A stretch of DNA of 64,000 nt from a bacterium. Lineage in GTDB: Bacteria; Electryoneota; RPQS01. The notes beneath the pieces are model-generated. The model was not told the origin of the DNA. It did no database searches and saw nothing but the letters and a program-made list of their open reading frames with translations. The number at the start of each line of letters is the position of its first letter. Positions within the stretch are counted from its first letter, which is position 1. The translations under genes and the position numbers were made by a program. The stretch lies in assembly GCA_023382385.1 (NCBI GenBank), contig JAHDVH010000003.1:362929-426928 (forward strand), written 5' to 3'. Below, in pieces: positions 3,075 to 61,947 of this stretch.

Positions 3075-4010
3075 TTACTGGAAGAAGATGTTTACGACAC
3101 CATTGACATGCAGCGTATCGCCCGGCAGGAAGATAATCTGATTTGCGTCAAAGTAGTTGGAGTTCGGATCCACGTTGTGATGACACAAATGACACTGCGG
3201 AATTGCGGGATGCGTCGGACTGGCCGGCGGCACCTGATGACAGGAGCGACAGTTGTTAAGAGTCTGCCCCGTGCCCCACGTCACGGGAACCAGAGGATCC
3301 CCGCCGCGGGCGTTGGAATGACAGTAGGTGGCGCAGTTGCTTTGATTCGTATACGTCGCGGGATATCCGTTAGTAGTTGATATCCGCGCATCGTCGAAGC
3401 GCACGTCCGCAGGCAGCGGGCCGATGTGATCCAATCCACGAACGCGATTGTGGCATTCGGTGCAGGAATAGCGCGTGTGCGCATAATGAGCACCGGGGTT
3501 ACGGTCACCGAGCGGATTCTGCGCCGAAGGCGGCATGCCGTGACAGGTGCTGCACGACGCCGGACCTGAGTTCTGCGTGTGGCAGGTGCGGCAGCTTGCC
3601 TCTGTGCGGCCACCTGCGAAATCGACACCGTGACATGCCTGACAGTCTCGGATCGTCTGCCACTCCATTGCGCGAATCTCTGCGGCATGTCCCTGCGCGA
3701 AGTCGCCCTGATGCGGATACGAGTGACATTCGTAGCACCCGGTCTGCTGCGCCGAGATCGGCGACGGATCGGGACGCTCACTGGCCGCAGGATCAAAGGG
3801 CAGGATGTTGTGACAGCCTGCGCAGCTTTGTCCCTGACTGCCCATCGCAGCCTGACCGTGCCATTCGGGGCTATGCACATCCATCCATCCGGTGGGATGC
3901 GTCTTGTAGCTTGACGTCACGCGGTCTTCGCTGCAGGAGAGCACGACAACGGCAATCACCGCAATACTGAGCAGCGCGAAGAGCGCTGACCTTTTGGAAT
4001 TAGTTTGCAT
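3075..4010 (-). CDS. Octahaem-type cytochrome c lipoprotein
   Basis: 311 residues. The N-terminus has a hydrophobic stretch ending in a lipobox (VLSC, about residue 26), so export and lipid anchoring are predicted. Eight CXXCH motifs are visible plus one CX3CH (CATYCH), which may or may not bind haem. CX3CH and longer spacings occur in some Geobacter-type outer-membrane cytochromes. The start overlaps the end of the 11-haem gene by 11 bases, indicating one operon. Beside a beta-barrel and another lipoprotein cytochrome it probably sits on the outer membrane as the terminal electron carrier; this is inferred from context only. Confidence 0.8.
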   Translation of the reverse strand: MQTNSKRSALFALLSIAVIAVVVLSCSEDRVTSSYKTHPTGWMDVHSPEWHGQAAMGSQGQSCAGCHNILPFDPAASERPDPSPISAQQTGCYECHSYPHQGDFAQGHAAEIRAMEWQTIRDCQACHGVDFAGGRTEASCRTCHTQNSGPASCSTCHGMPPSAQNPLGDRNPGAHYAHTRYSCTECHNRVRGLDHIGPLPADVRFDDARISTTNGYPATYTNQSNCATYCHSNARGGDPLVPVTWGTGQTLNNCRSCHQVPPASPTHPAIPQCHLCHHNVDPNSNYFDANQIIFLPGDTLHVNGVVNIFFQ

Positions 4011-4908
4011 GGCACCTCACGCAGGTTGGTTCGCGACGCGGAGTGTCATGACAGGACATACAGCTTTCGAGATCGAACTCAGCGGCTTCGGCATGCCGTC
4101 CGCCGGTCGCAGTCAGGAAACCCGGGCGGAAGTGGTCGGCGGGCAGAATGTTCATCTGCGCGTGACAGTCCACACAGAAGCTGCGCTGCTCGTGGCACGT
4201 GCCGCACCGGAAGTCGGACAGATGCGCATCGTGGCCGTGACGACTTAAGTAGTTTTTCGGATGCGGGTTGAAGACGGCGTCGCCCTGATGACAGGACTGG
4301 CAATCGAGCTTCGAGCCGCTGATGTGACACATCGAGCAATTTGCGTTGGCAGCGGCAGCTTCAATGCCGTGCCTTTGATCCCACATGACGGCGTGATCGT
4401 CGGGAACGAGTTTCTCGCCGGGCAGGTGACACGTGTTGCATTCCATCGCGACGGCACGCGTGACGTGGCAGTCCATGCACTCGGACATCGTCGGGAAGCG
4501 TCCGCTCTGTTTTGCGGAGATCGGTTCATCGAGATTGTTGTGACAAGCCGTGCATGCGAGCTTGGCATTACTCAGATGACGCTGATGGCCGAAGCCTGGG
4601 CTGTAATCGGAGATCACTTTGAGGATGAATCCATCGTAAGGTTCACCGAGCGCGATGCCCTTACCCGCCAAGTCGTTGTGCTCGTGACAATCGGCACAGG
4701 CCGACCACTTGGGCATCAGATTGTCCGTGCCCGCCCTGCTGGTTTCAACTCCGACGTGACAGGCCGAGCACTCGAGTCCCTGTTCGATGTGCACGGCGTG
4801 GCTGAAGGCAGGCGGTGCCGCGCGTTCAGGCTTGGCCACCGCGAATCTGCCGACGATAAAGACCACGATAACGGCGCAACTCAAGATCAGGAAGATGAAT
4901 CGTTTCAT
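4000..4908 (-). CDS. Periplasmic 11-haem cytochrome c
   Basis: The ATG at 4908 is chosen because GGGAGGTG precedes it and MKRFIFLILSCAVIVVF makes a signal peptide or anchor; a longer TTG frame to 4965 would run into the barrel gene. 302 residues with 11 CXXCH motifs and many extra histidines that could be distal ligands, resembling the cytochrome c3/c7 haem-chain style. The start overlaps the barrel gene stop as ATGA, so translation is coupled. Likely a periplasmic wire passing electrons into the barrel-lipoprotein complex. No enzyme domain is seen. Confidence 0.85.
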   Translation of the reverse strand: MKRFIFLILSCAVIVVFIVGRFAVAKPERAAPPAFSHAVHIEQGLECSACHVGVETSRAGTDNLMPKWSACADCHEHNDLAGKGIALGEPYDGFILKVISDYSPGFGHQRHLSNAKLACTACHNNLDEPISAKQSGRFPTMSECMDCHVTRAVAMECNTCHLPGEKLVPDDHAVMWDQRHGIEAAAANANCSMCHISGSKLDCQSCHQGDAVFNPHPKNYLSRHGHDAHLSDFRCGTCHEQRSFCVDCHAQMNILPADHFRPGFLTATGGRHAEAAEFDLESCMSCHDTPRREPTCVRCHAN

Positions 4909-6149
4909 GACACACCTCCCAGCATGCGGCGGAAGCTTGTCGTCAGATGGAAGAGCGCGCGCCAATCCTCACTGCGCAGCGGATCTTTCAAATGCTCAAT
5001 CCTTGCTCCGATCGACAACATGCGTTGCGGCGACCACGAGAGACCGCCGTAGATGACTTGTGCTTCGGTATTGGGACGAATCTCGCTATTCGAACCGCGA
5101 GAGTAATCGAACCCGGCCATCCCTTCAAACTCCCGGTAGAGATAACGCGCCTGACCGTAGAAGCCGTCCATGTCGCCGTCTCCCGCGGAGAGCCAATGCG
5201 TGTAGCCGACTTCGGCTTCGGGGATGCCGACGCCGCAGCGAGCTTTGTAGAGCATGTCGTCTTCGGAAAACACCAGATAGCCCATACCCGTAGCGTAGAT
5301 GCCCCGGTTCTTACAGAAAGTCCACTGCGCGCCGCCGCGAGCGGAGGTGGTTTTGGATTCTTCCAAGAACATCGCGAAGAAGGAGTCTTCAAAGATACGC
5401 GGGGTTTGCGTTCGGACATCGGCGGACACCAGCAGTTTGGTCATGGCCTGCCAATAGGCCGTCAGCTGCGCGGTTTCGATAGACGACTGCATGAGGTTCA
5501 TGTGCAAGCGGCCACGCAGAGTCACGTCATCGTGAGGTTTGCCCGAAGCGTCGAGACCTGCGCCGCTAAACAGGAGGTCACCGTCTCTGCCGACATAGTA
5601 ATAGGACAGACCGAGACGAGTTCCCTGAATGCGTGTGCGCAGATTGACGCCCGCAGCCATTCCCTGATCGTCATTCTCACCATCAAGCCTCAAGGATGAA
5701 GCGAGTCGATATCCAACATAGACGCGCGCATCGGTCCTGCGGTTGAACGTGAAGCTACTCCAGAGACCTGTGACATTCCCGCGACCGACACCTTCCGTAA
5801 TCCACTGTTGTCCGCCGCGGATTTCCCACGGGGAATCGGAGGGTTTCCAAATCAGCAGTGCCCGACTGACGCGCACGGACGCCGAGCTATCGGCGTAGCC
5901 GTTCTGATACTCCGCATAGCCGCGCAATGTGCTTTCGAATGACCACGCGCCGCCTCCGCCAAAGCGGTGGACATTGAGACTGAGCAGCGGCACAACCTGC
6001 ACACGATCCACGGAGTCGTCACGAACGTACGACCAGAGTCCGAAACGTCCGGAGACGGAGGCCGCTCGCGCGGCCTCCGTACTCACAAACGTCAAGGCAA
6101 GTGAGATCGTCAGGAGGAGAGTGCCCTGCCGAGATATTATGAATCGCAT
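4905..6149 (-). CDS. Outer-membrane beta-barrel, putative porin of a porin-cytochrome conduit
   Basis: 414 residues with a signal peptide ending around AARA. The rest alternates short amphipathic strands (repeated aromatic/Gly/Arg patterns such as YVGYRLASSLRL and YQNGYADSS) typical of an outer-membrane beta-barrel. It has two cysteines but no CXXCH. It lies between genes for multihaem cytochromes and overlaps the next by 4 bases. In known Mtr and Pcc complexes a barrel sheaths a multihaem cytochrome across the outer membrane. I infer an analogous role; it is shorter than MtrB (about 700 residues) and nearer in length to Geobacter Pcc porins. A plain diffusion porin is the alternative. Confidence 0.7.
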   Translation of the reverse strand: MRFIISRQGTLLLTISLALTFVSTEAARAASVSGRFGLWSYVRDDSVDRVQVVPLLSLNVHRFGGGGAWSFESTLRGYAEYQNGYADSSASVRVSRALLIWKPSDSPWEIRGGQQWITEGVGRGNVTGLWSSFTFNRRTDARVYVGYRLASSLRLDGENDDQGMAAGVNLRTRIQGTRLGLSYYYVGRDGDLLFSGAGLDASGKPHDDVTLRGRLHMNLMQSSIETAQLTAYWQAMTKLLVSADVRTQTPRIFEDSFFAMFLEESKTTSARGGAQWTFCKNRGIYATGMGYLVFSEDDMLYKARCGVGIPEAEVGYTHWLSAGDGDMDGFYGQARYLYREFEGMAGFDYSRGSNSEIRPNTEAQVIYGGLSWSPQRMLSIGARIEHLKDPLRSEDWRALFHLTTSFRRMLGGVS

Positions 6150-6196
6150 AATTTTGCGACCGTTCTATTGATGAGCGTCAACAAGTGACGCGAGGT

Positions 6197-7915
6197 TTAC
6201 TCTGTCCAGGCAGCCATCTTGTTTGAATCCGGAGACGTTATGGCGGCACCACTTGCGTGCAGATAGTCAATCGCGTTGATCAGCAGCGAGCGCGCATACG
6301 GGTAGTTGTGGACGCCCATCGAGCCTTCGTTAGTCACGAAGTACCAAGCGTAGCCGGCTTCGCGCTGGACACGTGTGGAATTGCTCGCCAAGAAGTTCGG
6401 GGAGGTGCCGTTGTTCGGAAGCAGATTGAACAGCGAATCTCTCAGAGCGGCAATTTCCGTACGACGGCCGTGATAGTCGAAGTCGGCGGGAGTCGCGTGG
6501 CAGGTATTGCAGGCCTGCAGATTCGGTGCAAAGCTGTGTCCGTGCAACGGACCGCCGGGCTGACCGAACGGAATCACGTAGATGTGGCACTTGACGCACA
6601 TGTCTTCAAGCGTGCTTTCACCAATCACAACATCGGGCTGGTGCGGCGATTCACGATTGTAGGTGTAGCCCGGGATTTCATAGGAGCCGTAGCCAACGAC
6701 CATGTCGGCCTGACAGCTTCCATGCGGGCCGGGGCGCGCGTTTCCGTTGTTGATTTGGCCGAGGACATTGGCTTCAGTGCGGCGCGCGTGGTGGCACTGG
6801 CCGCAGAGCTGGCCTTTGCCGTAGCTGGGAATGCCCATCGCCTCATTGGGAATCTCGAAGCCTTCGGGATGATCCGGTCCGCCGTAGATGATGTCGAACG
6901 GTGCGAGAGCACGCAGATAGCTGGGGTTGTTTTCGGCATCGTGCGAGTGCACATCATGGCAAGTTGCACACGTGACCTGATAGTGTTCTTCCGGCAACTC
7001 ACGCGTTGCCCATTCGGCGTCCCAAAGCTTAATGAAGCCTTCGTTCGTATGGCAGTCCATACATCCGGTGCGCGCGAATTCAGTATTAAACTCTTCGAGG
7101 CCTCCGGCATTCGCAATCGCATGGCCGTGACCGGATTCCATGTATTCTTCGTTCTGGCTGTGGCAACGATTGCAGGCGTCACCCGTCAGAGCCTTGTGGA
7201 TGTCCGGTGCATGTCCTGCGAACTGCGGACCCTGTGGAGAGTGGCAGGCTTCGCATTGCACGTTATGCAGCATCGCAGACGGGAAGTCGTCAAAGCCGCC
7301 GTTGTCAATACCGGGGGTTGCGATGGAGCCGTCGAAGTTCACGATGTCGTCGTAGCCCGTGACGTGGCACTGCACGCAATACGGGTTGTTCGTGACATTG
7401 CTCGTGACCAGCGTTTCCCAAGCATTCGCGTGGTGAGTGGTCGACCAGCCGTCTACGTAAGCGGCGTGGCAGTGGCTGCAGCGATTGGCGTTGTCACCTA
7501 AGAAGCTCGGGAAGACAGCGGGGACGTAGGTGTTTACACCGACAGTAACCGTCGCAGTCGCGCTGCCGTCGTTGTCGGTTACGGTCACTGAGACCTGATA
7601 CAATCCGATTTCCCGAGGCGGAGAGTAATTCGTTACGGCCATCGTCGGAGTTGCGAGTGTGCCGGTCGCGGCACTCCACTGATAGGTCATCGGATCGCCG
7701 TTCGGATCGTAGGCACTGACGAACAGCACGGTGCTTTCGCCGGTACCTACCGAATCGGGTGCAGCGACAATAGCGGTAATAATAGGTGCGGAGTCAGGGT
7801 TAAGACCTGCAGGACCCGCAGGACCCTGGTCTCCTTCGCAGCCCATGAAAGCGACGGTCACAACCATGACACTGACGAGGAGAAATACGGCTGGATGTAA
7901 TTTTTTTCGATACAT
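6197..7915 (-). CDS. PKD-domain 9-haem cytochrome c lipoprotein
   Basis: 572 residues. The ATG at 7915 follows AAGGGG. A signal peptide ends in a lipobox (FMGC); a short collagen-like GPAGPAG tract follows. Residues ~40-130 form a PKD-type Ig domain (DPNGDPMTYQWSA...YQVSVTVTDNDGSA). The rest carries nine CXXCH motifs with the HxxxH and C-H patterns of the cytochrome c554/c3 superfamily. The Ig fold on a lipid-anchored haem protein suggests an outer-surface location, perhaps contacting minerals, partners or other cytochromes; this is inference. First gene of the unit that continues to 3075, with 47 bases before the barrel gene. Confidence 0.83.
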   Translation of the reverse strand: MYRKKLHPAVFLLVSVMVVTVAFMGCEGDQGPAGPAGLNPDSAPIITAIVAAPDSVGTGESTVLFVSAYDPNGDPMTYQWSAATGTLATPTMAVTNYSPPREIGLYQVSVTVTDNDGSATATVTVGVNTYVPAVFPSFLGDNANRCSHCHAAYVDGWSTTHHANAWETLVTSNVTNNPYCVQCHVTGYDDIVNFDGSIATPGIDNGGFDDFPSAMLHNVQCEACHSPQGPQFAGHAPDIHKALTGDACNRCHSQNEEYMESGHGHAIANAGGLEEFNTEFARTGCMDCHTNEGFIKLWDAEWATRELPEEHYQVTCATCHDVHSHDAENNPSYLRALAPFDIIYGGPDHPEGFEIPNEAMGIPSYGKGQLCGQCHHARRTEANVLGQINNGNARPGPHGSCQADMVVGYGSYEIPGYTYNRESPHQPDVVIGESTLEDMCVKCHIYVIPFGQPGGPLHGHSFAPNLQACNTCHATPADFDYHGRRTEIAALRDSLFNLLPNNGTSPNFLASNSTRVQREAGYAWYFVTNEGSMGVHNYPYARSLLINAIDYLHASGAAITSPDSNKMAAWTE

Positions 7916-8425
7916 ATGGTACCCCTTTGGGACCTTTTTCCCTGTTTTGGAAAGCTCCTGCTACGGACGGAAAATAATGACCCCCCGCGGAAGTTTTCCA
8001 CAGGGGGTGTCAATAATGTTGATAAGTTTTGTCAGATTAAGATGGCAAACGGGAATGCCTGCGTTGGTCAGCAACTGATTGGAAACAATGATGATTCGTT
8101 GATGATGGAGACTCATTGTGCGTTCAAATTGCAACGACTAATGCCTATCCTTAGCCAATGCATTTATTCTACACAACTTTCGTTCCAAGTGCAACGGTGC
8201 AAAGACCTTGGAAGAACCGGATCAGTTCCAGTTCAAAATCTCAAGCCTTTCTTTTTCAGCAATGTAGACCCAAGCAGTCCACTTTGCAATTTGCTTGATA
8301 AGGAGGCTCTTTTCAACACTTAGGTGTTGCGATGCCTCCACGCTGACTTTAGTTGCACGAGTCGAGCCGACTCGTAACCCTATGGTTTTCAGTAATTAAG
8401 CTTTTAATATTGCGCAATTAGCTTT
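7916..8425. other. 510-bp gap between two leftward cytochrome units
   Basis: Contains the ribosome site of the PKD cytochrome gene and a hairpin at 8357-8375. I see no convincing promoter pair and no believable gene; the rightward frame at 7916-8323 has no protein-like features. Confidence 0.5.
8357..8375 (-). terminator. Hairpin downstream of the HTH gene
   Basis: Perfect 8-bp stem ACGAGTCG / CGACTCGT with a 3-base loop, 50 bases after the HTH stop. No T-run follows, so it may be an RNA-stabilising hairpin or an operator rather than a terminator. Confidence 0.4.
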
Positions 8426-8734
8426 TTAGTGTCCCGTGGCGCGGTGGTCTCGAATGAAGCGCATGATCTCATCACGTTCGAAAAGAATGACTTTACGTGA
8501 TAAGCGCACACATTTCAAGCGATCTTCACGCACCCAACGCATAATTGTGGTACGATGTACACGGCCGAGCATTTCGGCAGCTTCGGACAGAGTTAGTAGT
8601 CCCTGCGGTCCTTCTCCCGGCGCACGCGGCGCGGTCCCACCGTCGGCCCGGGTCACCTTAGCAACGCGAGTTCGCGGTGCTGTGTTCATGGCTTCTCCTT
8701 TCGCGGCAGTCTTCATTGGTTTTCGAGTACTCAT
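8426..8734 (-). CDS. Small MerR/excisionase-type helix-turn-helix protein
   Basis: 102 residues; residues ~46-95 (LLTLSEAAEMLGRVHRTTIMRWVREDRL...) match the winged helix-turn-helix of BldC/excisionase-like proteins. The ATG at 8734 overlaps the stop of the NapC-type cytochrome gene as ATGA. An internal ATG at 8689 has a better ribosome site (AAAGGAG, 5-base spacing) and still includes the whole HTH, so either start is possible. A DNA-binding gene coupled to a cytochrome gene suggests local control of the electron-transfer operon; the target is unknown. A related small HTH gene lies at 62897. Confidence 0.75.
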   Translation of the reverse strand: MSTRKPMKTAAKGEAMNTAPRTRVAKVTRADGGTAPRAPGEGPQGLLTLSEAAEMLGRVHRTTIMRWVREDRLKCVRLSRKVILFERDEIMRFIRDHRATGH

Positions 8735-10668
8735 TGGGCTGCTCCAAGCGATTCATACCACCGCTTGAATAGTTCTGGGTTATGAGCGGTACCGCTTCCG
8801 TCTTTCTTCAGCAGGTCCGCCAATTGTTGGTATTTTCGATAAGGTTCACTTCCGGCACGGTAAGCTGACATTGCTTTCTGCACGTTGCGTGCAATTTCCT
8901 GTGCATCGGACTTCCACATTTTCAACGTGTCGGCAGTGTTCTCGTCGTGACACGCGATGCAAGACGGCAAAACGTCGCGTGAAACATGAGTCCCGCTTAC
9001 GGCATGGCAGTCCGTACAAACGATTTCGAGGTCCATTTTAAATGACGGCTTCGCGCCCGCGAATTCAGGAACGTTGCCGGCATACACAGCCGCTTGCGTC
9101 GTATGACACGTCTTGCAATCTGTCTTCGCCAGTGCAACGGACTCATGGTGGCAGGCGTTGCACTGGTTGCTCGACATTTGAATCGCGCCGTGACGGTCCG
9201 TCCGTTCCGACACGTGGCAGGCTGTACAGTCACCAGCGCGCGAATGTTTGCTATGGTTAAAGAGCTTGCCGTCATAGGCCACCACAGCGTTGGCCGCGCC
9301 CGGGTGACAGACTGCGCAGGCGTGCCCGGTCGCCGCAGGTGAGCCGGTGATGCGCGCGGTGAGCACGTCCACCAATTCCGGATTGTGCAACGGATTTCCC
9401 CGCCTGTACACATCAATCGCCGCCCGAATCGTGTCTGCTTCCGCAGGACTCAGTGTATGAAGCTTTGCTTCGAGGTCGCGCAAGCCCTGGGCAATCGTCA
9501 CTTCCCAACGCGGCCAGAGTCTGTCGAACTCCGCGTCATGACAAGGCGTGCAGGAGGGCGGCTCAGGCTTGCCGCGAATCGTGTGCACATCCCCTGTGTG
9601 ACAGGACGTGCAGGACATTCCGGCACTTGCCATAGACGACGGAGAAGGCGGAATGCCGGGCAACTCGCCGCGCCAAACTTTTTCGATGGCGTTATCCGGT
9701 TTGCCGTGGCACTGCCCGCAGGTCCGTTCCTGACTGGCAAACGCGACGGCTTCCTTGCCGTGCCTGATTTGAATGTGACAAGCCGTGCATTCCACTTTAC
9801 GATCGGTCACGTGCATCTGATGAACGAATTCGTGATCATCGTAGCGCTCGATGTGAGCGACCTGCGCGTGACAGGAATTGCAGCGTTCGCGCGGGACAAA
9901 ACCGTCGCCTGCAATTTCCGAAACGTGGCAGCTTGAACAATCAATCTTGCGGGCAAGCATCTCGGTATGGTCGTAGCTCGTGTCCGCGGCGGCCGGTCCG
10001 GTCGGGGGATTGTGACAAATCGTGCATGTGGCGAGCGCAGTCACCTGTCCCAGGGAATCCGGCTTGAAGTGGCACAGGAAACACGTGGACTCGTTGACCG
10101 ATATGTGCTCGCCTTGAACGATGTTTGCGTGGCACGATGTGCAGCGCAACTGCCGACCGCGCCGGACATTCTCGAGATGCGGCTTGTGGTCAAACATCAC
10201 ACCCCGAAAACTCTCGGTGCTCTGCAGCAAGCGAGTGTCATGACAACCGGAACGCAGACAGCTCCTGTCATCGATTTCCGCCCAAGGCTTTGAGCGCTTA
10301 TACAGTCCCGTCATATAATTGGTGACCATCGAGATGGCCAAGAACTTCGAGTGAATCGTTCCTTCCAACCCGGGCGGAATATGGCACTCCGTGCAGGTAA
10401 CCATACTATGCGTTGATGTTTCCCACGCATCGAAGTAGGGAATCATCACATGACACGACTTACAGAAGTTCGGCTGCGACGTGACTTTGACAAAGAACAA
10501 CAAAGAAAACAGAATGACCGCGGCAGAGGCAAACAACACCAAGCCGATGCGTCGCGGTCCGAATTCCATCAATCGCTTCCAGCCAACGCCAAAAAGCCAG
10601 AAAGGAAGTTTGATCGTCTCCCAGCAGGCGATGAAGAATTCGTGCAGAAGGAACTTGAACTTGGACAC
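8731..10668 (-). CDS. NapC/NirT-anchored multihaem cytochrome c (17 CXXCH)
   Basis: 645 residues from a GTG start. One membrane segment (~residues 40-60) is followed by CKSCHVM and a CTECH, the layout of NapC/NirT/CymA quinol dehydrogenases, where the first haem uses a Met ligand. Downstream come 15 more CXXCH and one CX4CH (CLRSGCH): 17 standard plus one unusual site. Two stretches without haem sites (~400-440 and the last ~65 residues) look alpha-helical and are similar to each other in style (YRxGxP...NPEL), hinting at an internal duplication. Inferred role: oxidising menaquinol and passing electrons down a built-in haem chain, comparable to CymA or ImcH but much larger. Confidence 0.85.
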   Translation of the reverse strand: MSKFKFLLHEFFIACWETIKLPFWLFGVGWKRLMEFGPRRIGLVLFASAAVILFSLLFFVKVTSQPNFCKSCHVMIPYFDAWETSTHSMVTCTECHIPPGLEGTIHSKFLAISMVTNYMTGLYKRSKPWAEIDDRSCLRSGCHDTRLLQSTESFRGVMFDHKPHLENVRRGRQLRCTSCHANIVQGEHISVNESTCFLCHFKPDSLGQVTALATCTICHNPPTGPAAADTSYDHTEMLARKIDCSSCHVSEIAGDGFVPRERCNSCHAQVAHIERYDDHEFVHQMHVTDRKVECTACHIQIRHGKEAVAFASQERTCGQCHGKPDNAIEKVWRGELPGIPPSPSSMASAGMSCTSCHTGDVHTIRGKPEPPSCTPCHDAEFDRLWPRWEVTIAQGLRDLEAKLHTLSPAEADTIRAAIDVYRRGNPLHNPELVDVLTARITGSPAATGHACAVCHPGAANAVVAYDGKLFNHSKHSRAGDCTACHVSERTDRHGAIQMSSNQCNACHHESVALAKTDCKTCHTTQAAVYAGNVPEFAGAKPSFKMDLEIVCTDCHAVSGTHVSRDVLPSCIACHDENTADTLKMWKSDAQEIARNVQKAMSAYRAGSEPYRKYQQLADLLKKDGSGTAHNPELFKRWYESLGAAQ

Positions 10669-16860: not shown

Positions 16861-18768
16861 TTATTTGAGGAGCAACATCCGGTTCACGAGGCTCTGCTCG
16901 TTCACTGTAATGCGATACATGTACATTCCTGACGGCAGGCTTGCGGCATTCCAGGTGGTGACGTACGAACCTGCGCTCAGGTTATCGTTCACCAGCGTGG
17001 CCACCTGACGACCCAGCACGTCAAAGACTGTCAGAGTTACCAGACCGGAGACCGGAGTCGAGAATTCGATGGTCGTAGTCGGGTTGAACGGGTTAGGATA
17101 GTTTGTTGCGACCAAGTGCGAGACCGGAATCATAGACGGATTCGGGCTAACAGACATGCCTTCGAGAGGATCGAGCCCTTCCGTGTCGCCGGGCATCCGA
17201 TAGAATTGGCCATCCACTTCATAAACCACAACCCACCGAGCCTCAAGGTTATTGATCGGGCAGGGAACCATGCCACCGACCACTTCAACATTCTGGCCGA
17301 GCGTTGGAATCACTGGATTGCTGAGATCGAAGTTTTCGCCAAAGTCGATAACGTAGTCAGCTGAGCCATTCATGTCGCGGTCGATACCAAGGAACACCGA
17401 GCCGAAAACATTGATGTCCACAACCTGTCCGGAAATTTCGACCCACGTCAGCGGATCCGAGCAACCGAAGCCTTCCGAACGGCCGCCGCCATCTCCACCA
17501 TGCTCACCGTCACGTCCACCACGCGGCTCCCACCACAGTTCACCGTTCAGGAAGTGAACGTGAACAATCGGGGCCTCGCCGTGCGACATCAGCGCACCGA
17601 CGATTGTCACTTCATCGCCATCCGCCGGACGCTCAGCGCCGCTGGGCGGAGTATACCACGGAGGACCAAAATTCAGACGGTAGTCAATCGCGCCGTCGGC
17701 ATCGACATCCAGCGCATAGAAGGTGCGATCCGGATAGAGCGGGTCTGGCGTAATAATTGAAACCGTACCGGCCAGCTCGACAATTTCAAAGTGATGCCCG
17801 CCACCGCCACCGCCGCCATGCTCGCCGGAATCGGCTGCAACAAGCGTCAGCGTAACAAACGTGGTCTGGGCTTCAGAAATCTCGATGACTTCGCTGGCAA
17901 AGCCGACGCCGCGCTTGGAGGCATTGACGTTGTAGATACCTACAGGCAGGGTGTTCACGAGCAAGTTACCTTCCGCATCGGTCAAACCGACGAAATGCTG
18001 CGGGCGCGGTCCGCCGTGGTCACGAATAAACGAGACGCGCACGCGGGCCTCCTCAACAGGACTCGTCACTCCGAGAGAATCGGTAACCACGACATCGACA
18101 GACAGGCTGCCGGTGATGATGTTTGCGCCATGACCCGTCAACGGGATAATAACGATGTCACGCACGGGATCATTCGAGGTCACCGTCAGCGTCCCTTCAT
18201 ACAATTGAATATCCGTCGGTGTGAATGTCACCAGCACTTCCGTGCCGTTGTTCATCGGATCGGCGGTCAGCGTGAATTCCGCTGGTGAGTTCAAGGCGAA
18301 CGCTGCGCCCGAAACACTTAGGGACACGTTCAGGTCCGCCGTGCCGCGATTCTCGACGCGGACAATGCGCGTAAAGGTCGTCCCGATACCGACAGGGCCA
18401 AAGAACACATGTTCCGGCATCAGGAAGATGCGCGGGGCGGGTTCAAAGACAGGCAGCGTTAGCGTGACTTCCGCCAACTGCCCCGGCAGAACTTCGACAT
18501 CCGCTCGCACCGGCGGAATACCCGGAATACCGGCGGTCACAGAATAACCGATGGCAGGAATGGCCGGGAAGAAGATCTGACCTTCGAGGTTCGTGATGCC
18601 GTCAAAGTGTGGGCGCTGGTGTCCCTGACCGTAGCCAAGCACATTGACCATAGCGCCTACGACGGGAGCATCGCCCGCCAGAACTGTTACTCGCAGGTCG
18701 CCCGTCTGGGCAAATGCCATTGAAATGCCGAGCAGGGTTGCGAGGGTGAGAAGGAATAGCTTTTTCAT
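16861..18768 (-). CDS. Secreted multidomain protein with C-terminal sorting domain
   Basis: 635 residues from the ATG at 18768, preceded by GGAG and starting a clear signal peptide (MKKLFLLTLATLLGISMAFA); the longer frame to 18852 is rejected. Parts in order: carboxypeptidase-regulatory-like beta domain (~22-110), ASH/HYDIN-type Ig domain (~115-215), a second regulatory-like domain (~220-310), a His/Gly-rich linker, two OB-like DUF5666-type modules (~325-530), then a T9SS type A / FlgD-Ig-like C-terminal domain (NYPNPFNPTTTIEF...SGMYMYRI). Likely an exported surface or released structural protein. It has a sigma-54-type promoter and lies next to a sigma-54 activator operon. Confidence 0.82.
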   Translation of the reverse strand: MKKLFLLTLATLLGISMAFAQTGDLRVTVLAGDAPVVGAMVNVLGYGQGHQRPHFDGITNLEGQIFFPAIPAIGYSVTAGIPGIPPVRADVEVLPGQLAEVTLTLPVFEPAPRIFLMPEHVFFGPVGIGTTFTRIVRVENRGTADLNVSLSVSGAAFALNSPAEFTLTADPMNNGTEVLVTFTPTDIQLYEGTLTVTSNDPVRDIVIIPLTGHGANIITGSLSVDVVVTDSLGVTSPVEEARVRVSFIRDHGGPRPQHFVGLTDAEGNLLVNTLPVGIYNVNASKRGVGFASEVIEISEAQTTFVTLTLVAADSGEHGGGGGGGHHFEIVELAGTVSIITPDPLYPDRTFYALDVDADGAIDYRLNFGPPWYTPPSGAERPADGDEVTIVGALMSHGEAPIVHVHFLNGELWWEPRGGRDGEHGGDGGGRSEGFGCSDPLTWVEISGQVVDINVFGSVFLGIDRDMNGSADYVIDFGENFDLSNPVIPTLGQNVEVVGGMVPCPINNLEARWVVVYEVDGQFYRMPGDTEGLDPLEGMSVSPNPSMIPVSHLVATNYPNPFNPTTTIEFSTPVSGLVTLTVFDVLGRQVATLVNDNLSAGSYVTTWNAASLPSGMYMYRITVNEQSLVNRMLLLK

Positions 18769-18835
18769 AATTTTCTCCAGATACCGAATAAAGTGTGAAA
18801 CTGGGTTACTGTTACTGCTTTCTGCGCTATATAAT

Positions 18836-18853
18836 GGCAAGACCCGTTCCACT
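18836..18853 (-). promoter_or_regulatory. Sigma-54 (-24/-12) promoter candidate
   Basis: The minus strand reads TGGAACGGGTCTTGCC: GG and GC exactly ten bases apart, close to the TGGCACG-N4-TTGCW consensus. It lies about 70 bases before the ATG at 18768. Confidence 0.65.
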
Positions 18854-30621: not shown

Positions 30622-32187
30622 ATGCGACGACTTCTCTTTTCACTGGCATTGCTCTCCGCACTGATCATGCTGGTGATAAACATACTGCCGGAACCGGGCG
30701 GCGAACGCACTCCGCATGAGATACTGCGAGCAAAACACTCGGTAACGCGCAAGCCATCCGTTGATCACGCGAAGTTCTCCGTGCTGGACGGACCCTTCGA
30801 AAATCCTCAAGACGTCACCCGTGTCTGCATCTCCTGCCACACGGAACGGCACATTGAGGTGATGCAATCCTCACACTGGAACTGGGAACGCATCGAATAC
30901 ATCGAAGGTAAAGGCATCCGCAAAGTTGGTAAGAAGAACATCCTGAATAACTACTGTATCGGGATTTCCGGAAACGAGCAGGCATGCAACCGCTGTCATA
31001 TCGGATACGGTTACGGCGATGCTTCGTTCGACTTCAAGAATCCCTACAATGTGGATTGTCTGGCCTGTCACGACCAAAGCAATCTCTACATGAAGGCCGG
31101 CGCCGGAATGCCTGACCCGAATGTGGACCTTGCAAAAGTGGCAAAAGACGTCGGGGCGCCGACGCGCACCAACTGCGGAACCTGCCACTTCTTCGGTGGC
31201 GGCGGCAATAACGTGAAGCACGGTGATCTTGAGATGGCGCTGTTCGAGCCGTCGCGTGAAATGGATGTGCATATGGCAGTCGACGGCGTGAATATGCAGT
31301 GTGTGGCCTGTCATACTGCGGAACAGCACCAAATGCTGGGTAAGCTGTATTCCGTATCTTCAATGAATCGCGACCGTGTTTCATGTGAAACATGCCACGG
31401 CGGTCTGCCGCACGCAGACAAGGTTTTGAATAATCACACGCTTAAAGTCTCCTGCCAGACCTGCCACATTCCAACCTACGCAAAAGACCATCCGACAAAA
31501 CTGCAATGGGATTGGTCCACGGCCGGCCAGCTGCAAGACGGCAAACCATTCAGTCAGGTGGATGACCAGTTAGGTGTCGAAACCTACATGTCCACCAAGG
31601 GTTCATTTGTCTGGGGCAAGAACATCAAACCTGAATATGCATGGTTTAACGGCACGGCTTCGCATTACTTGCTCGGGGATACTTTTGATCCGGCGGATAC
31701 GCTGCAGATGAATTCGCTCCGCGGTTCGTACGACGATCCCGACGCGAAAGTTGTTCCCGTCAAGATACATCGCGCGAAGCAGATCTACGACGTAGAACAT
31801 AACTACCTGATTCAGCCGAAGACTGTCACAAATCATCCCGGAGACAGCGCGTTCTGGAGAGAGTTTGACTGGCAACGTGCGTCCGCCGCAGGCATGCGTG
31901 AAGTCGGACTTCCCTACAGCGGCAAGTTTGATTTCGCGCAGACTGTGATGTACTGGCCGATTAACCATATGGTCGCGCCGGCCAGCAAGTCCGTGACATG
32001 CGCTGAGTGTCACACGCGCCAAGGCGGGAGACTTGAGGGCCTGAACGATTTTTATATGCCGGGCCGCGATCGTGTGTTATGGATTGATCGGGCGGGAGCA
32101 GGACTTCTGGTGTTGACCATTCTCGGCATATTGGTTCACGGTACCGCACGCTTTATCGTATCGCGCAGACGGAACGGGGGACACTAA
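30622..32187 (+). CDS. Octahaem c-type cytochrome, tetrathionate-reductase (OTR) family
   Basis: 521 residues. N-terminal signal/anchor (LLFSLALLSALIMLVINILP); exactly eight CXXCH motifs (CISCH, CNRCH, CLACH, CGTCH, CVACH, CETCH, CQTCH, CAECH); a C-terminal membrane helix (~490-510). Eight haems, the long haem-free region between the 7th and 8th sites and the context match the octahaem tetrathionate reductase family first studied in Shewanella, whose members can reduce tetrathionate, nitrite or hydroxylamine in vitro. Here a cytochrome b gene starts immediately after, giving a likely quinol-linked membrane complex. The sulfur genes on both sides make a sulfur-oxyanion substrate likely, but it is not proven. 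Confidence 0.88.
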   Translation: MRRLLFSLALLSALIMLVINILPEPGGERTPHEILRAKHSVTRKPSVDHAKFSVLDGPFENPQDVTRVCISCHTERHIEVMQSSHWNWERIEYIEGKGIRKVGKKNILNNYCIGISGNEQACNRCHIGYGYGDASFDFKNPYNVDCLACHDQSNLYMKAGAGMPDPNVDLAKVAKDVGAPTRTNCGTCHFFGGGGNNVKHGDLEMALFEPSREMDVHMAVDGVNMQCVACHTAEQHQMLGKLYSVSSMNRDRVSCETCHGGLPHADKVLNNHTLKVSCQTCHIPTYAKDHPTKLQWDWSTAGQLQDGKPFSQVDDQLGVETYMSTKGSFVWGKNIKPEYAWFNGTASHYLLGDTFDPADTLQMNSLRGSYDDPDAKVVPVKIHRAKQIYDVEHNYLIQPKTVTNHPGDSAFWREFDWQRASAAGMREVGLPYSGKFDFAQTVMYWPINHMVAPASKSVTCAECHTRQGGRLEGLNDFYMPGRDRVLWIDRAGAGLLVLTILGILVHGTARFIVSRRRNGGH

Positions 32188-32847
32188 ATGAAACGCGAAT
32201 TAGTCTATCCGGTCTTTGAACGCTTTTGGCATTGGACGCAGGCCGCGCTGATTATTCTGTTAGGTGTCACAGGCTTCGAAATTCACGGTTCACTCCATTT
32301 CTTCGGGTTCCGGCAGGCGGTCAACATTCACTCTGTCGCAGCCATCGCATTTCTGATCCTGATCTGCTTCGCCGTGTTCTGGCATTTAACCAGCGGTGCG
32401 TGGCGACAGTATCTTCCCACATCCACTAACATCAGGGCGCAAGTGGACTATTACGTAACGGGCATTTTCCGCGGCGCTCCGCATCCGACGAAGAGAAGCG
32501 TGCTGAGCAAGCTCAACCCTTTGCAGAAACTCGTCTATGCCGGGCTGAAGGTCCTGGTCATTCCCCTGATGGTCACGACCGGTCTTATCTACATGTTCTA
32601 TCGCTATCCGCAGCAATATGAAGTCATCAGTCTGAATATTGAAGGGCTGTCTGTGGTGGCGGCAATTCATACGCTTGGTGCGTTCCTCTTGGTCACATTT
32701 CTGATTGCACACCTCTACTTGACGACCACCGGCACCACGCCCACTGCAAACCTCAAGGCCATGGTCACAGGCTACGAAGACCTGCCCGACGAGCAGGCCG
32801 TCGCACACGAACGAAATCTCCTGCTAAAAACGGAAACGGTTAGCTGA
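32188..32847 (+). CDS. Cytochrome b561-type membrane subunit of the octahaem complex
   Basis: 219 residues with four hydrophobic helices and paired histidines (FERFWHWTQAA, NIHSVAAIAF, FWHLTSG, IHTLGAFLLVTFLIAHLYL) as in the di-haem b subunits of Ni-Fe hydrogenase and thiosulfate reductase. It should exchange electrons between menaquinone and the octahaem protein. It starts directly after the preceding stop and shares one base with the next gene (TGATG), so it is cotranslated. Confidence 0.87.
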   Translation: MKRELVYPVFERFWHWTQAALIILLGVTGFEIHGSLHFFGFRQAVNIHSVAAIAFLILICFAVFWHLTSGAWRQYLPTSTNIRAQVDYYVTGIFRGAPHPTKRSVLSKLNPLQKLVYAGLKVLVIPLMVTTGLIYMFYRYPQQYEVISLNIEGLSVVAAIHTLGAFLLVTFLIAHLYLTTTGTTPTANLKAMVTGYEDLPDEQAVAHERNLLLKTETVS

Positions 32848-59971: not shown

Positions 59972-60450
59972 GCGCGTGACCCGTTGGAATTATTGGACTT
60001 CATAATTGATCTGCGGTAGTTGCTTGGACTGTGACTTTCCTGCCCCACTTCGGCGAAATCGTTGTCATTTGTGTGGCAATTGTTCTACAGTCGTAAAGGT
60101 ATGAAAAAATTTGAGTAAGTCAATATGCCCCCAAAATGTCCCAGAAAATGATCTAACTCAGCTTAACAAACTACATAGCACGGAAAGTCCTGGGTCGCTT
60201 TGTAATATTTTATTTAATATACTCTTATCAAAGTACGTGCGGACCAAATGACGTTGTGGCACACCCGTTGCCATATGCAAAACGGGGACCGCAATGCAGC
60301 GTGGCTGTCATGAGTTCCTTCAGTCGTTGCGGTCCTCGCTTCCCCAATCCCTTTTATGCGGTGGCAGCTTCACAGGGCTCGGCCAGGCCCGGCGCGCCCC
60401 GCGCCCAGATTATGATACTAACCATAAACACCCGAACAGGTAAACGACCC
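59972..60450. other. 479-bp region before the cupredoxin gene, with folded leader
   Basis: AT-rich left half, then GC-rich right half with several inverted repeats (60264-60335). The frame running from 60256 is not a likely gene start because a real signal peptide begins at 60451. Confidence 0.5.
60264..60335 (+). ncRNA. Candidate structured leader RNA
   Basis: Hairpin CCCGTT/AACGGG (60264-60286) abuts a long stem GGACCGCAA (60286-60294) / TTGCGGTCC (60327-60335) enclosing a CAGC-GTG-GCTG hairpin (60297-60307) and a weaker second hairpin: a possible three-way junction. It ends ~115 bases before the ATG at 60451. No known riboswitch class is recognised. Confidence 0.35.
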
Positions 60451-61947
60451 ATGAGACTCAGGCTTCTTAGCACGATTTCACTCGCTCTACTCTGGTGGTC
60501 AACAGCAGGCTGGTCTGCTACTCACCATGTGTCAATCCAGAACTTTTCGTTCGCGCCGCAATCGATTTCGATTTCGGCCGGAGACAGCGTGATCTTCACG
60601 AACAACGATGTCGCTCCCCACACGGCGACGTCTACGACCGGATTGTTCGACAGCGGCTTTTTGAATGTCGGTGCCGTGTGGGGAACTCAATTTAATTCTG
60701 ACGGCTCGTATCCATATGTCTGTCTCTATCACTCCAACATGACGGGCGTCATCACGGTAGGTGGTGGACAGGGCACCGACACAGCGTGGGTTGAACTTAC
60801 CAGTCCGACAGCTCTTCCACTCGCTGACGTGCGATTCTGGGACGCAAACATTGGCTGGATCGCCGGCGAGCAGGGAATCCTGCGCACGACGAACGGCGGA
60901 GACTCATGGCAGCTGGTGGGAACGTCAGACGATGCGGAAGCGGTGTTCTTTATTAGTGCGACTGAAGGCTGGGCGTGCGGCAACGATGGCATGATTCTGC
61001 ACACGACCAATGGTGGTCAGAGCTGGACGCCGCAGAACAGCGGTGTCGAAGAGAAGCTGCGGGACATCTGGTTCACGGACTCGCAAAATGGATGGGCGGT
61101 CGGCAGAAACGGTATCCTCATCCGCACGACCAACGGCGGTCAAACCTGGAACCCGCAGAGCAGTCCGGCAACGGACGACTTGCGCGGTATCTACATGCTC
61201 GACGGCCAACGCGGCTGGATTGTCGGGTCTGACGGACTGATTCTCTATACGTCGAACGGCGGTGCGAACTGGAATACTCAATTGAGCGTGCCGGGAGGCG
61301 AAGAAGACGAATTTGAGGCAGTCGTGGCGATAGACGAGAACCATGCGTGGGCGGCTGGAGGGCAGGGACGAATCTATGCGACCACGAATGGCGGTCTCAA
61401 TTGGACTCCACAGGCCAGCGGGACGACGGTCGCTCTGCAGGACATCCACGTCCGAGGTTCGGACTTCGGGTGGGTGTGCGGTGCTGGCGGCTTCCTTGCG
61501 TCCTTGATGAGCGAGGGAGGAATGTGGCATACGCAAATCCCGCCTGTCGTCGCGACCTTCACGAGCGTTTACTTCGTCAGTGACTCGCTGGGATTTATGG
61601 TCACGGGTGACGGGCGCATCTTCCGGCGCAGAATCGCTGAGGTGAGCAGTTCCGCACCGCATGATCATCATCACGCGCACGTCTCGCACATGGATCTCGC
61701 ACAAAACTACCCTAACCCTTTTAACCCGGCCACGACGATTGAGTTTGTGCTTCCCGCCGCAGGACTAACCACACTGACAATCTATGACATTCTTGGTCAG
61801 CAAGTCGCCCAGCCGATACGAGATGTGTTGTCCAGCGGAACACATCGAGTCGAATTCGTCGCCGAGAACCTTCCCAGCGGAGCATATTTCTATCAGCTTC
61901 GCAGCAACGACTTGATCGAAACCCGGAAGATGATGCTGCTAAAATGA
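60451..61947 (+). CDS. Secreted cupredoxin / YCF48-repeat protein with sorting domain
   Basis: 498 residues from the ATG at 60451 (AGGTAAACGACCC before it; signal peptide MRLRLLSTISLALLWW...). Cupredoxin domain ~23-105 with type-1 copper ligands apparently His in VAPHTAT, Cys and His in YVCLYH, and Met in NMTG. Then YCF48/BNR-type repeats (GWxxGxxGxIxxTxNGGxxW, ~110-400), a His-rich segment (PHDHHHAHVSH) and a T9SS/FlgD-Ig C-terminal domain (NYPNPFNPATTIEF). A blue-copper electron carrier on a surface-sorted scaffold is inferred; upstream sequence may be a structured leader. Confidence 0.83.
   Translation: MRLRLLSTISLALLWWSTAGWSATHHVSIQNFSFAPQSISISAGDSVIFTNNDVAPHTATSTTGLFDSGFLNVGAVWGTQFNSDGSYPYVCLYHSNMTGVITVGGGQGTDTAWVELTSPTALPLADVRFWDANIGWIAGEQGILRTTNGGDSWQLVGTSDDAEAVFFISATEGWACGNDGMILHTTNGGQSWTPQNSGVEEKLRDIWFTDSQNGWAVGRNGILIRTTNGGQTWNPQSSPATDDLRGIYMLDGQRGWIVGSDGLILYTSNGGANWNTQLSVPGGEEDEFEAVVAIDENHAWAAGGQGRIYATTNGGLNWTPQASGTTVALQDIHVRGSDFGWVCGAGGFLASLMSEGGMWHTQIPPVVATFTSVYFVSDSLGFMVTGDGRIFRRRIAEVSSSAPHDHHHAHVSHMDLAQNYPNPFNPATTIEFVLPAAGLTTLTIYDILGQQVAQPIRDVLSSGTHRVEFVAENLPSGAYFYQLRSNDLIETRKMMLLK

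Follow-up and report, generated by a model that had tools for sequence, protein, structure and literature searches.

The 64,000-nucleotide stretch analysed here (the window; contig JAHDVH010000003.1 of a bacterium of the phylum Electryoneota) contains a cluster of multihaem cytochrome genes around an outer-membrane β-barrel gene at positions 3075–10668. All genes of the cluster are on the minus strand. From right to left, they encode a NapC/NirT-type, N-terminally anchored multihaem cytochrome (8731–10668; 645 amino acids), a small DNA-binding protein of the HTH_17/excisionase type (8426–8734; 102 amino acids), a lipoprotein composed of a GPAGPAG stretch, a PKD domain and a C554-type 9-haem cytochrome (6197–7915; 572 amino acids), the barrel, a predicted plug-less 22-stranded porin of the porin-cytochrome (Pcc) type (4905–6149; 414 amino acids), a predicted periplasmic 11-haem cytochrome of the c7 type (4000–4908; 302 amino acids from its ATG) and a predicted outer-surface lipoprotein cytochrome (3075–4010; 311 amino acids). 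A first-pass annotation of this DNA had listed five leftward genes with 17, 9, 0 (barrel), 11 and 8 CXXCH motifs. Coordinates and motif counts of these five agree with the present analysis; the helix-turn-helix (HTH) gene had been overlooked.

The recount over the five genes gives the 45 CXXCH motifs claimed before. When the residues of each cytochrome are shuffled, 0.03–0.13 CXXCH are found on average and two at most, thus the motif counts are not due to chance. Two atypical haem sites are present in addition, CLRSGCH (CX4CH) in the NapC-type protein, which accompanies its 17 CX2CH, and CATYCH (CX3CH) in the lipoprotein cytochrome, which accompanies its 8 CX2CH. The former is present in most relatives, and the position of the latter is occupied by CX3CH or CX4CH in nearly all relatives. 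Given this recurrence, the cluster likely has 47 haem sites.

The barrel gene overlaps the 11-haem gene by 4 bp (ATGA), as described before, and the 11-haem gene overlaps the 8-haem gene by 11 bp. The gap between the PKD gene and the barrel gene is 47 bp. At the other end, the HTH gene shares 4 bp with the NapC-type gene and lies 510 bp away from the PKD gene. Because of this gap the cluster may form two transcription units; one or two are possible. Promoter-like patterns (8, with 3.6 expected) and terminator-like patterns (8, with 8.3 expected) are of little help in this respect, and Rfam finds no RNA families in the window.

The AlphaFold model of the barrel, predicted from seven window and locus sequences, has 22 strands between residues 31 and 409 (mean predicted local distance difference test score, pLDDT, 78; predicted template modelling score 0.67). 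The strands begin directly after the signal peptide and a plug domain is absent from the model. In a second look with Foldseek/VIA-align the best structural matches are 22-stranded barrels of TonB receptors (Z 19.6, 328 residues, root-mean-square deviation 5.2). These are generic large barrels, yet they agree with the strand number of the model. MtrB is not among the structural matches listed, which is no argument against a shared fold, and a sequence comparison of the barrel with the PDB gives no match, MtrB included. If a shear number is assumed, the usual formula for barrels puts the backbone diameter at ~40 Å for 22 strands and at ~47 Å for 26 strands. On this model, a slim wire of the c7 type could fit inside. 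A barrel without a lumen for a cytochrome, named in the first-pass annotation as the case that speaks against a conduit, is not what the plug-less 22-strand model gives, its lumen size being estimated by formula.

The 11-haem protein has a signal peptide, 11 CX2CH motifs and 13 further histidines available as distal ligands. The best PDB match of its profile is 3ov0 ("Cytochrome c family protein", 3.9e-24), the elongated dodecahaem c7 polymer GSU1996. The protein is proposed to be the wire within the barrel, with a role like that of OmaB or MtrA. In the 8-haem lipoprotein, the lipobox LSC-SED and the C-terminal LHVNG are conserved in relatives, and TIGR01904 and PF09698 (the Geobacter CxxxxCH...CXXCH motif) match above their curated cut-offs. 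These sequence features suggest an outer-surface cytochrome with a role like that of OmcB or MtrC.

The lipoprotein encoded by 6197–7915 carries, behind its lipobox and a short collagen-like GPAGPAG stretch, the Pfam domains PKD (5.3e-8) and Cytochrome_C554 (1.1e-11). In all ten homologues compared, a collagen-like (G-x-y) stretch comes after a GCEG lipobox. Several of them lack the PKD domain; the cytochrome is thus retained behind a spacer of variable make-up. Homologues are present in 23 of 39 genomes of the phylum, 21 of which also have the barrel. The protein is proposed to be a stalked cytochrome with a predicted position at the cell surface.

The N-terminus of the protein encoded by 8731–10668 matches the Pfam NapC/NirT region (8.6e-9) and the NrfH model (8.4e-11); the NrfH structure 2j7a is matched at 1.5e-9. 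It is followed by a long haem domain of the c7/c3 type (Cytochrome_C7, 5e-25). The protein is proposed to be a quinol dehydrogenase that would supply a periplasmic chain of haems. Its homologues occur in 20 of the 39 phylum genomes, with the barrel in 19 of these 20. ImcH and CymA share the NapC/NirT-type anchor and first haems, and ImcH also shares one atypical haem motif. ImcH-type proteins are characterised by three N-terminal transmembrane helices, NapC-like first haems and 6–10 haem motifs, and CymA has 4–5 haems (PMC6295460). The protein contains the NapC/NirT region but has 17 CX2CH and one CX4CH, which places it outside the ImcH class by motif number, and it is co-encoded with a conduit. 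The adjacent HTH gene matches HTH_17 (3.8e-12) and TIGR01764 (above cut-off) and is found at the same position in the two nearest genomes of the same layout (G004 and G006). Its product is a putative regulator.

The conservation of the cluster was assessed in 39 genomes of the phylum and 347 genomes outside it, using barrel-only profiles (E ≤ 1e-8 outside the phylum) and reading the barrel neighbourhoods without selection for cytochrome content. Barrel relatives are present in 26 of the 39 and in 30 of the 347 genomes; none was found in plasmid records and viral contigs. Flanking sequence suffices at 58 loci, and at 57 of them a multihaem cytochrome gene comes next on the same strand (all 25 when the phylum loci and CP070707.1 are taken together, 32 of 33 outside). 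These partners have 5, 8 or 10–14 haems. As third gene, every assessable locus of the phylum has one for a homologous lipoprotein cytochrome. Loci outside the phylum include three-gene versions, in which the partner has 11–12, 8 or 5 haems, and two-gene versions, in which it has 13. The accessory genes can join the core: in one phylum member (G032, L055) genes for the 9-haem, NapC-type, barrel, periplasmic, lipoprotein and 4-haem proteins lie on one strand, and at a locus outside the phylum (L072) barrel, 11-haem, c/b561 and NapC-type genes form a row. In another genome (G012, L016) the core has CcsA and ResB, genes for cytochrome c maturation, directly downstream. The first-pass annotation had held that homologues which do not occur together would count against it; gene order is conserved in many genomes. 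In a distant phylum member (G026, L020:9527–11632) the surface lipoprotein is enlarged to 701 amino acids and 24 CXXCH, and barrel and periplasmic partner are of unchanged size.

A second cytochrome cluster faces the first one on the plus strand. It begins about 7 kb before the window and ends at position 2394 with the 3' part of a gene (1–2394) for a 17-haem cytochrome c fused to cytochrome b561 (Ni_hydr_CYTB, 3.4e-8), an architecture like that of CbcL. Its content is a 4-haem cytochrome, an iron-sulfur (FeS) protein, NrfD, a 13-haem cytochrome and two 17-haem/b561 genes, of which that at 1–2394 is the last. The start of the cluster (L018:10156–13051) comprises the 4-haem cytochrome, which is of the c554 type, the FeS protein and the NrfD membrane protein. 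In other families of the phylum the core has homologues of the facing cluster as neighbours (L050, L052–L056, L058, L059), and the 4-haem gene recurs next to the core in several families. CbcL, MtrH and MtoC consist of an N-terminal multihaem c domain (3–23 haems) fused to a membrane domain of the cytochrome b561 type (PMC6295460). The gene at 1–2394 and its neighbour share this architecture (17 CX2CH in the full gene, plus Ni_hydr_CYTB) and their products are putatively quinone-reactive; they differ in being two tandem copies adjoining FeS, NrfD and 13-haem genes. From their domains, they are proposed to be an alternative quinone-active entry point that may be linked to the conduit.

Further redox genes are present in the window and the genome. 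At 30622–32847 (plus strand) a cytochrome of the octahaem tetrathionate-reductase family (30622–32187; TIGR04315, 584 bits, cut-off 375) is followed by a small cytochrome b561-like gene. On contig C2 of the genome (G000), a conduit-like cluster (L066:926–9359, ~356.9–365.4 kb) comprises genes for membrane and FeS proteins, 20-haem and 31-haem cytochromes and a barrel-like protein of 558 amino acids. Its haem numbers are near the medians of PCC3 (21 periplasmic and 34 extracellular haems, together with a porin and a b-type inner-membrane protein; He et al. 2017, PMC5566968). On the same contig (L065:253–8882, ~340.3–348.9 kb), a barrel-like protein of 698 amino acids, a SurA-type isomerase-like protein and 26-haem and 16-haem cytochromes are encoded in one run, possibly a third type of conduit. 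Proteins encoded at 16861–18852 (minus strand) and 60256–61947 (plus strand) have NYPNPFNPxT-type tails as in cargo of type IX secretion of the FCB group, which suggests the placement of the organism.

The genes at 3075–6149 very probably encode a Pcc-type outer-membrane electron conduit between the quinone pool and extracellular partners, to which the other genes add accessory parts. The first-pass annotation had already read the parts list as an extracellular electron-transfer conduit, and this function, which we infer, is supported by the plug-less barrel and the conserved co-occurrence. In the proposed mechanism, quinol is oxidised at the inner membrane by the NapC-type protein with its 17/18 haems, and through this protein the electrons enter the periplasm on their way to the 11-haem cytochrome. 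The facing c/b561 and FeS-NrfD-13-haem modules would probably be alternative points of entry. The 22-stranded barrel would sheathe the haem-loaded 11-haem cytochrome, whose outer end would deliver electrons to the 9-site (8+1) lipoprotein cytochrome predicted at the surface. The stalked 9-haem lipoprotein may be a second terminal, at the surface or in the outer leaflet, that widens contact with minerals or partner cells. Most likely, the net flow is outward, serving respiration on Fe or Mn oxides, humics or partner cells.

Several points weigh against this reading. With 22 strands, the barrel would have less room inside than MtrB. The AlphaFold model of the 11-haem cytochrome has a pLDDT of 40 and was left out of the fold searches, so that insertion into the barrel stays a proposal. 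The 510 bp and the HTH gene between the NapC and PKD genes mean that co-transcription with the core is not required. The Fisher p-values for co-occurrence of the barrel with the NapC-type and 9-haem genes (about 1e-4 each) ignore shared ancestry. The Pcc assignment is based on published features and gene order, and homology of the barrel to OmbB is putative. Finally, two haem-copper oxidases (COX1-type) in the genome leave the direction less certain, as does the PCC3-like cluster on contig C2, since conduits of this type have been put forward as Fe(II)-oxidising systems (PMC5566968). Both also argue for the same conduit working inward, with electrons from extracellular Fe(II) or a partner cell reducing quinone or feeding the oxidases, and CbcL/MtoC-like b561 fusions are known in Fe(II) oxidisers as well as Fe(III) reducers (PMC6295460). 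Nevertheless, outward flow is modestly favoured because the NapC-type anchor with its long haem domain resembles ImcH-type proteins, which have been reported from Fe(III) reducers only (PMC6295460), and because RuBisCO and CdhC, the two markers of CO2 fixation looked for, were not found. Inward flow is regarded as rather unlikely.

A role of the cytochromes in a soluble-substrate (nitrogen or sulfur) reductase or oxidase, located in the periplasm or at the surface with the barrel as a substrate porin, would accord with the cytochrome c554-type domain of the 9-haem protein and the octahaem tetrathionate-reductase-family enzyme in the same window. However, none of the four cluster cytochromes matches a catalytic family above cut-off in Pfam or NCBIfam, the barrel is paired with a multihaem cytochrome instead of an enzyme in 57 of the 58 loci, and no enzyme is called alongside the two-gene versions with 13-haem partners outside the phylum (L097, L099). 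Such a role is highly improbable.

For the Pcc-type conduit, a more specific arrangement can be put forward tentatively: a dedicated relay from quinol to the surface, in which the 17–18-haem NapC-type protein would by itself bridge a large part of the periplasm up to the wire held by the barrel, with no small cytochromes acting as shuttles, and the nonahaem lipoprotein, its stalk collagen-like or of the PKD type, would be the second terminal. The whole cassette would then be ancestral and kept across the uncultured phylum and some lineages beyond. The NapC-type protein raises the question of whether one quinol-oxidising cytochrome can span the periplasm.

The conservation of order and content indicates a complete kit for extracellular respiration across a little-known uncultured phylum, and a literature search gave no paper on extracellular electron transfer in Electryoneota. 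Related conduits are present in about one twelfth of the other genomes sampled. A survey in 2014 reported Pcc conduits in six phyla (PMC4245776); given the relatives across this phylum and in these other genomes, they look more widespread. As the neighbouring gene nearly always encodes a multihaem cytochrome, the barrel profile offers an easy way of recognising Pcc conduits in genomes.

The first-pass annotation had likened the parts list to both Mtr and Pcc. MtrCAB, MtoAB and PioAB have the same layout of a barrel-sheathed haem wire and a surface cytochrome; their barrel differs in family and size, their periplasmic cytochrome belongs to another family and their gene order is different. Membership in this family is next to negligible in probability, since the shared functional layout (barrel, periplasmic multihaem cytochrome, surface lipoprotein) and the weak similarity of the cytochrome profiles of the cluster to MtrC and MtrF structures are set against a barrel without a match to MtrB/PioB up to E 1 (Pfam, NCBIfam) or to MtrB by PDB sequence, an 11-haem protein without a match to the MtrA/DmsE decahaem family (TIGR03508, up to E 1), 22 instead of 26–28 strands and different haem numbers. 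The cluster is not a PCC3 conduit either, with 8 and 11 haems compared with medians of 34 and 21. The ExtABCD, ExtEFG and ExtHIJKL conduits of Geobacter sulfurreducens likewise comprise a barrel, a multihaem periplasmic cytochrome (12 haems in ExtA and ExtG) and small lipoprotein cytochromes; compared by description, they differ in gene order and lipoproteins (PMC6148476).

The likeness to Pcc stands. The ombB-omaB-omcB genes of G. sulfurreducens have the order barrel, periplasmic cytochrome, lipoprotein (PMC4589669, PMC4245776), as has the core of the cluster. Pcc barrels have 18–22 strands, the periplasmic cytochromes 5–14 haems and the outer cytochromes, which are lacking in some clusters, 1–15 haems with CX3-4CH variants (Shi et al. 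2014, PMC4245776). In the cluster, the AlphaFold barrel has 22 strands, the adjacent periplasmic cytochrome, joined by the ATGA overlap, has 11 CX2CH, and the lipoprotein cytochrome, with its conserved lipobox and predicted surface placement, has 8 CX2CH and a CX3CH; as in Pcc, the variant motif is found in the outer and not in the periplasmic cytochrome. A regulator gene and inner-membrane cytochromes lie nearby in both. Outside the phylum, the barrels retrieved by the profile include neighbours of cytochromes with 8, 5 and 13 haems, which are known as partners in Pcc groups; kinship of the barrel with OmbB itself is putative. Since gene order, strand number and haem counts are all within Pcc ranges, the earlier statement that haem counts, PKD lipoprotein and gene order fit no recognised system is wrong for the core. 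For the two additions, the gene of the NapC-type protein with 17/18 haems and that of the stalked 9-haem lipoprotein, no description was found in the searchable literature; a search of incomplete coverage gave no lipoprotein multihaem cytochrome with a PKD domain or collagen-like stretch in extracellular electron transfer. Compared with OmbB-OmaB-OmcB, the core has 11 and 8(+1) haems versus 8 and 12, its barrel is only distantly similar to barrels beside 8-haem cytochromes elsewhere (L080, 84 bits), and the stalked lipoprotein and the NapC-type protein are additional. As a relative of the Geobacter-type Pcc conduit the system is well preserved, and its two additional parts are less common ones.

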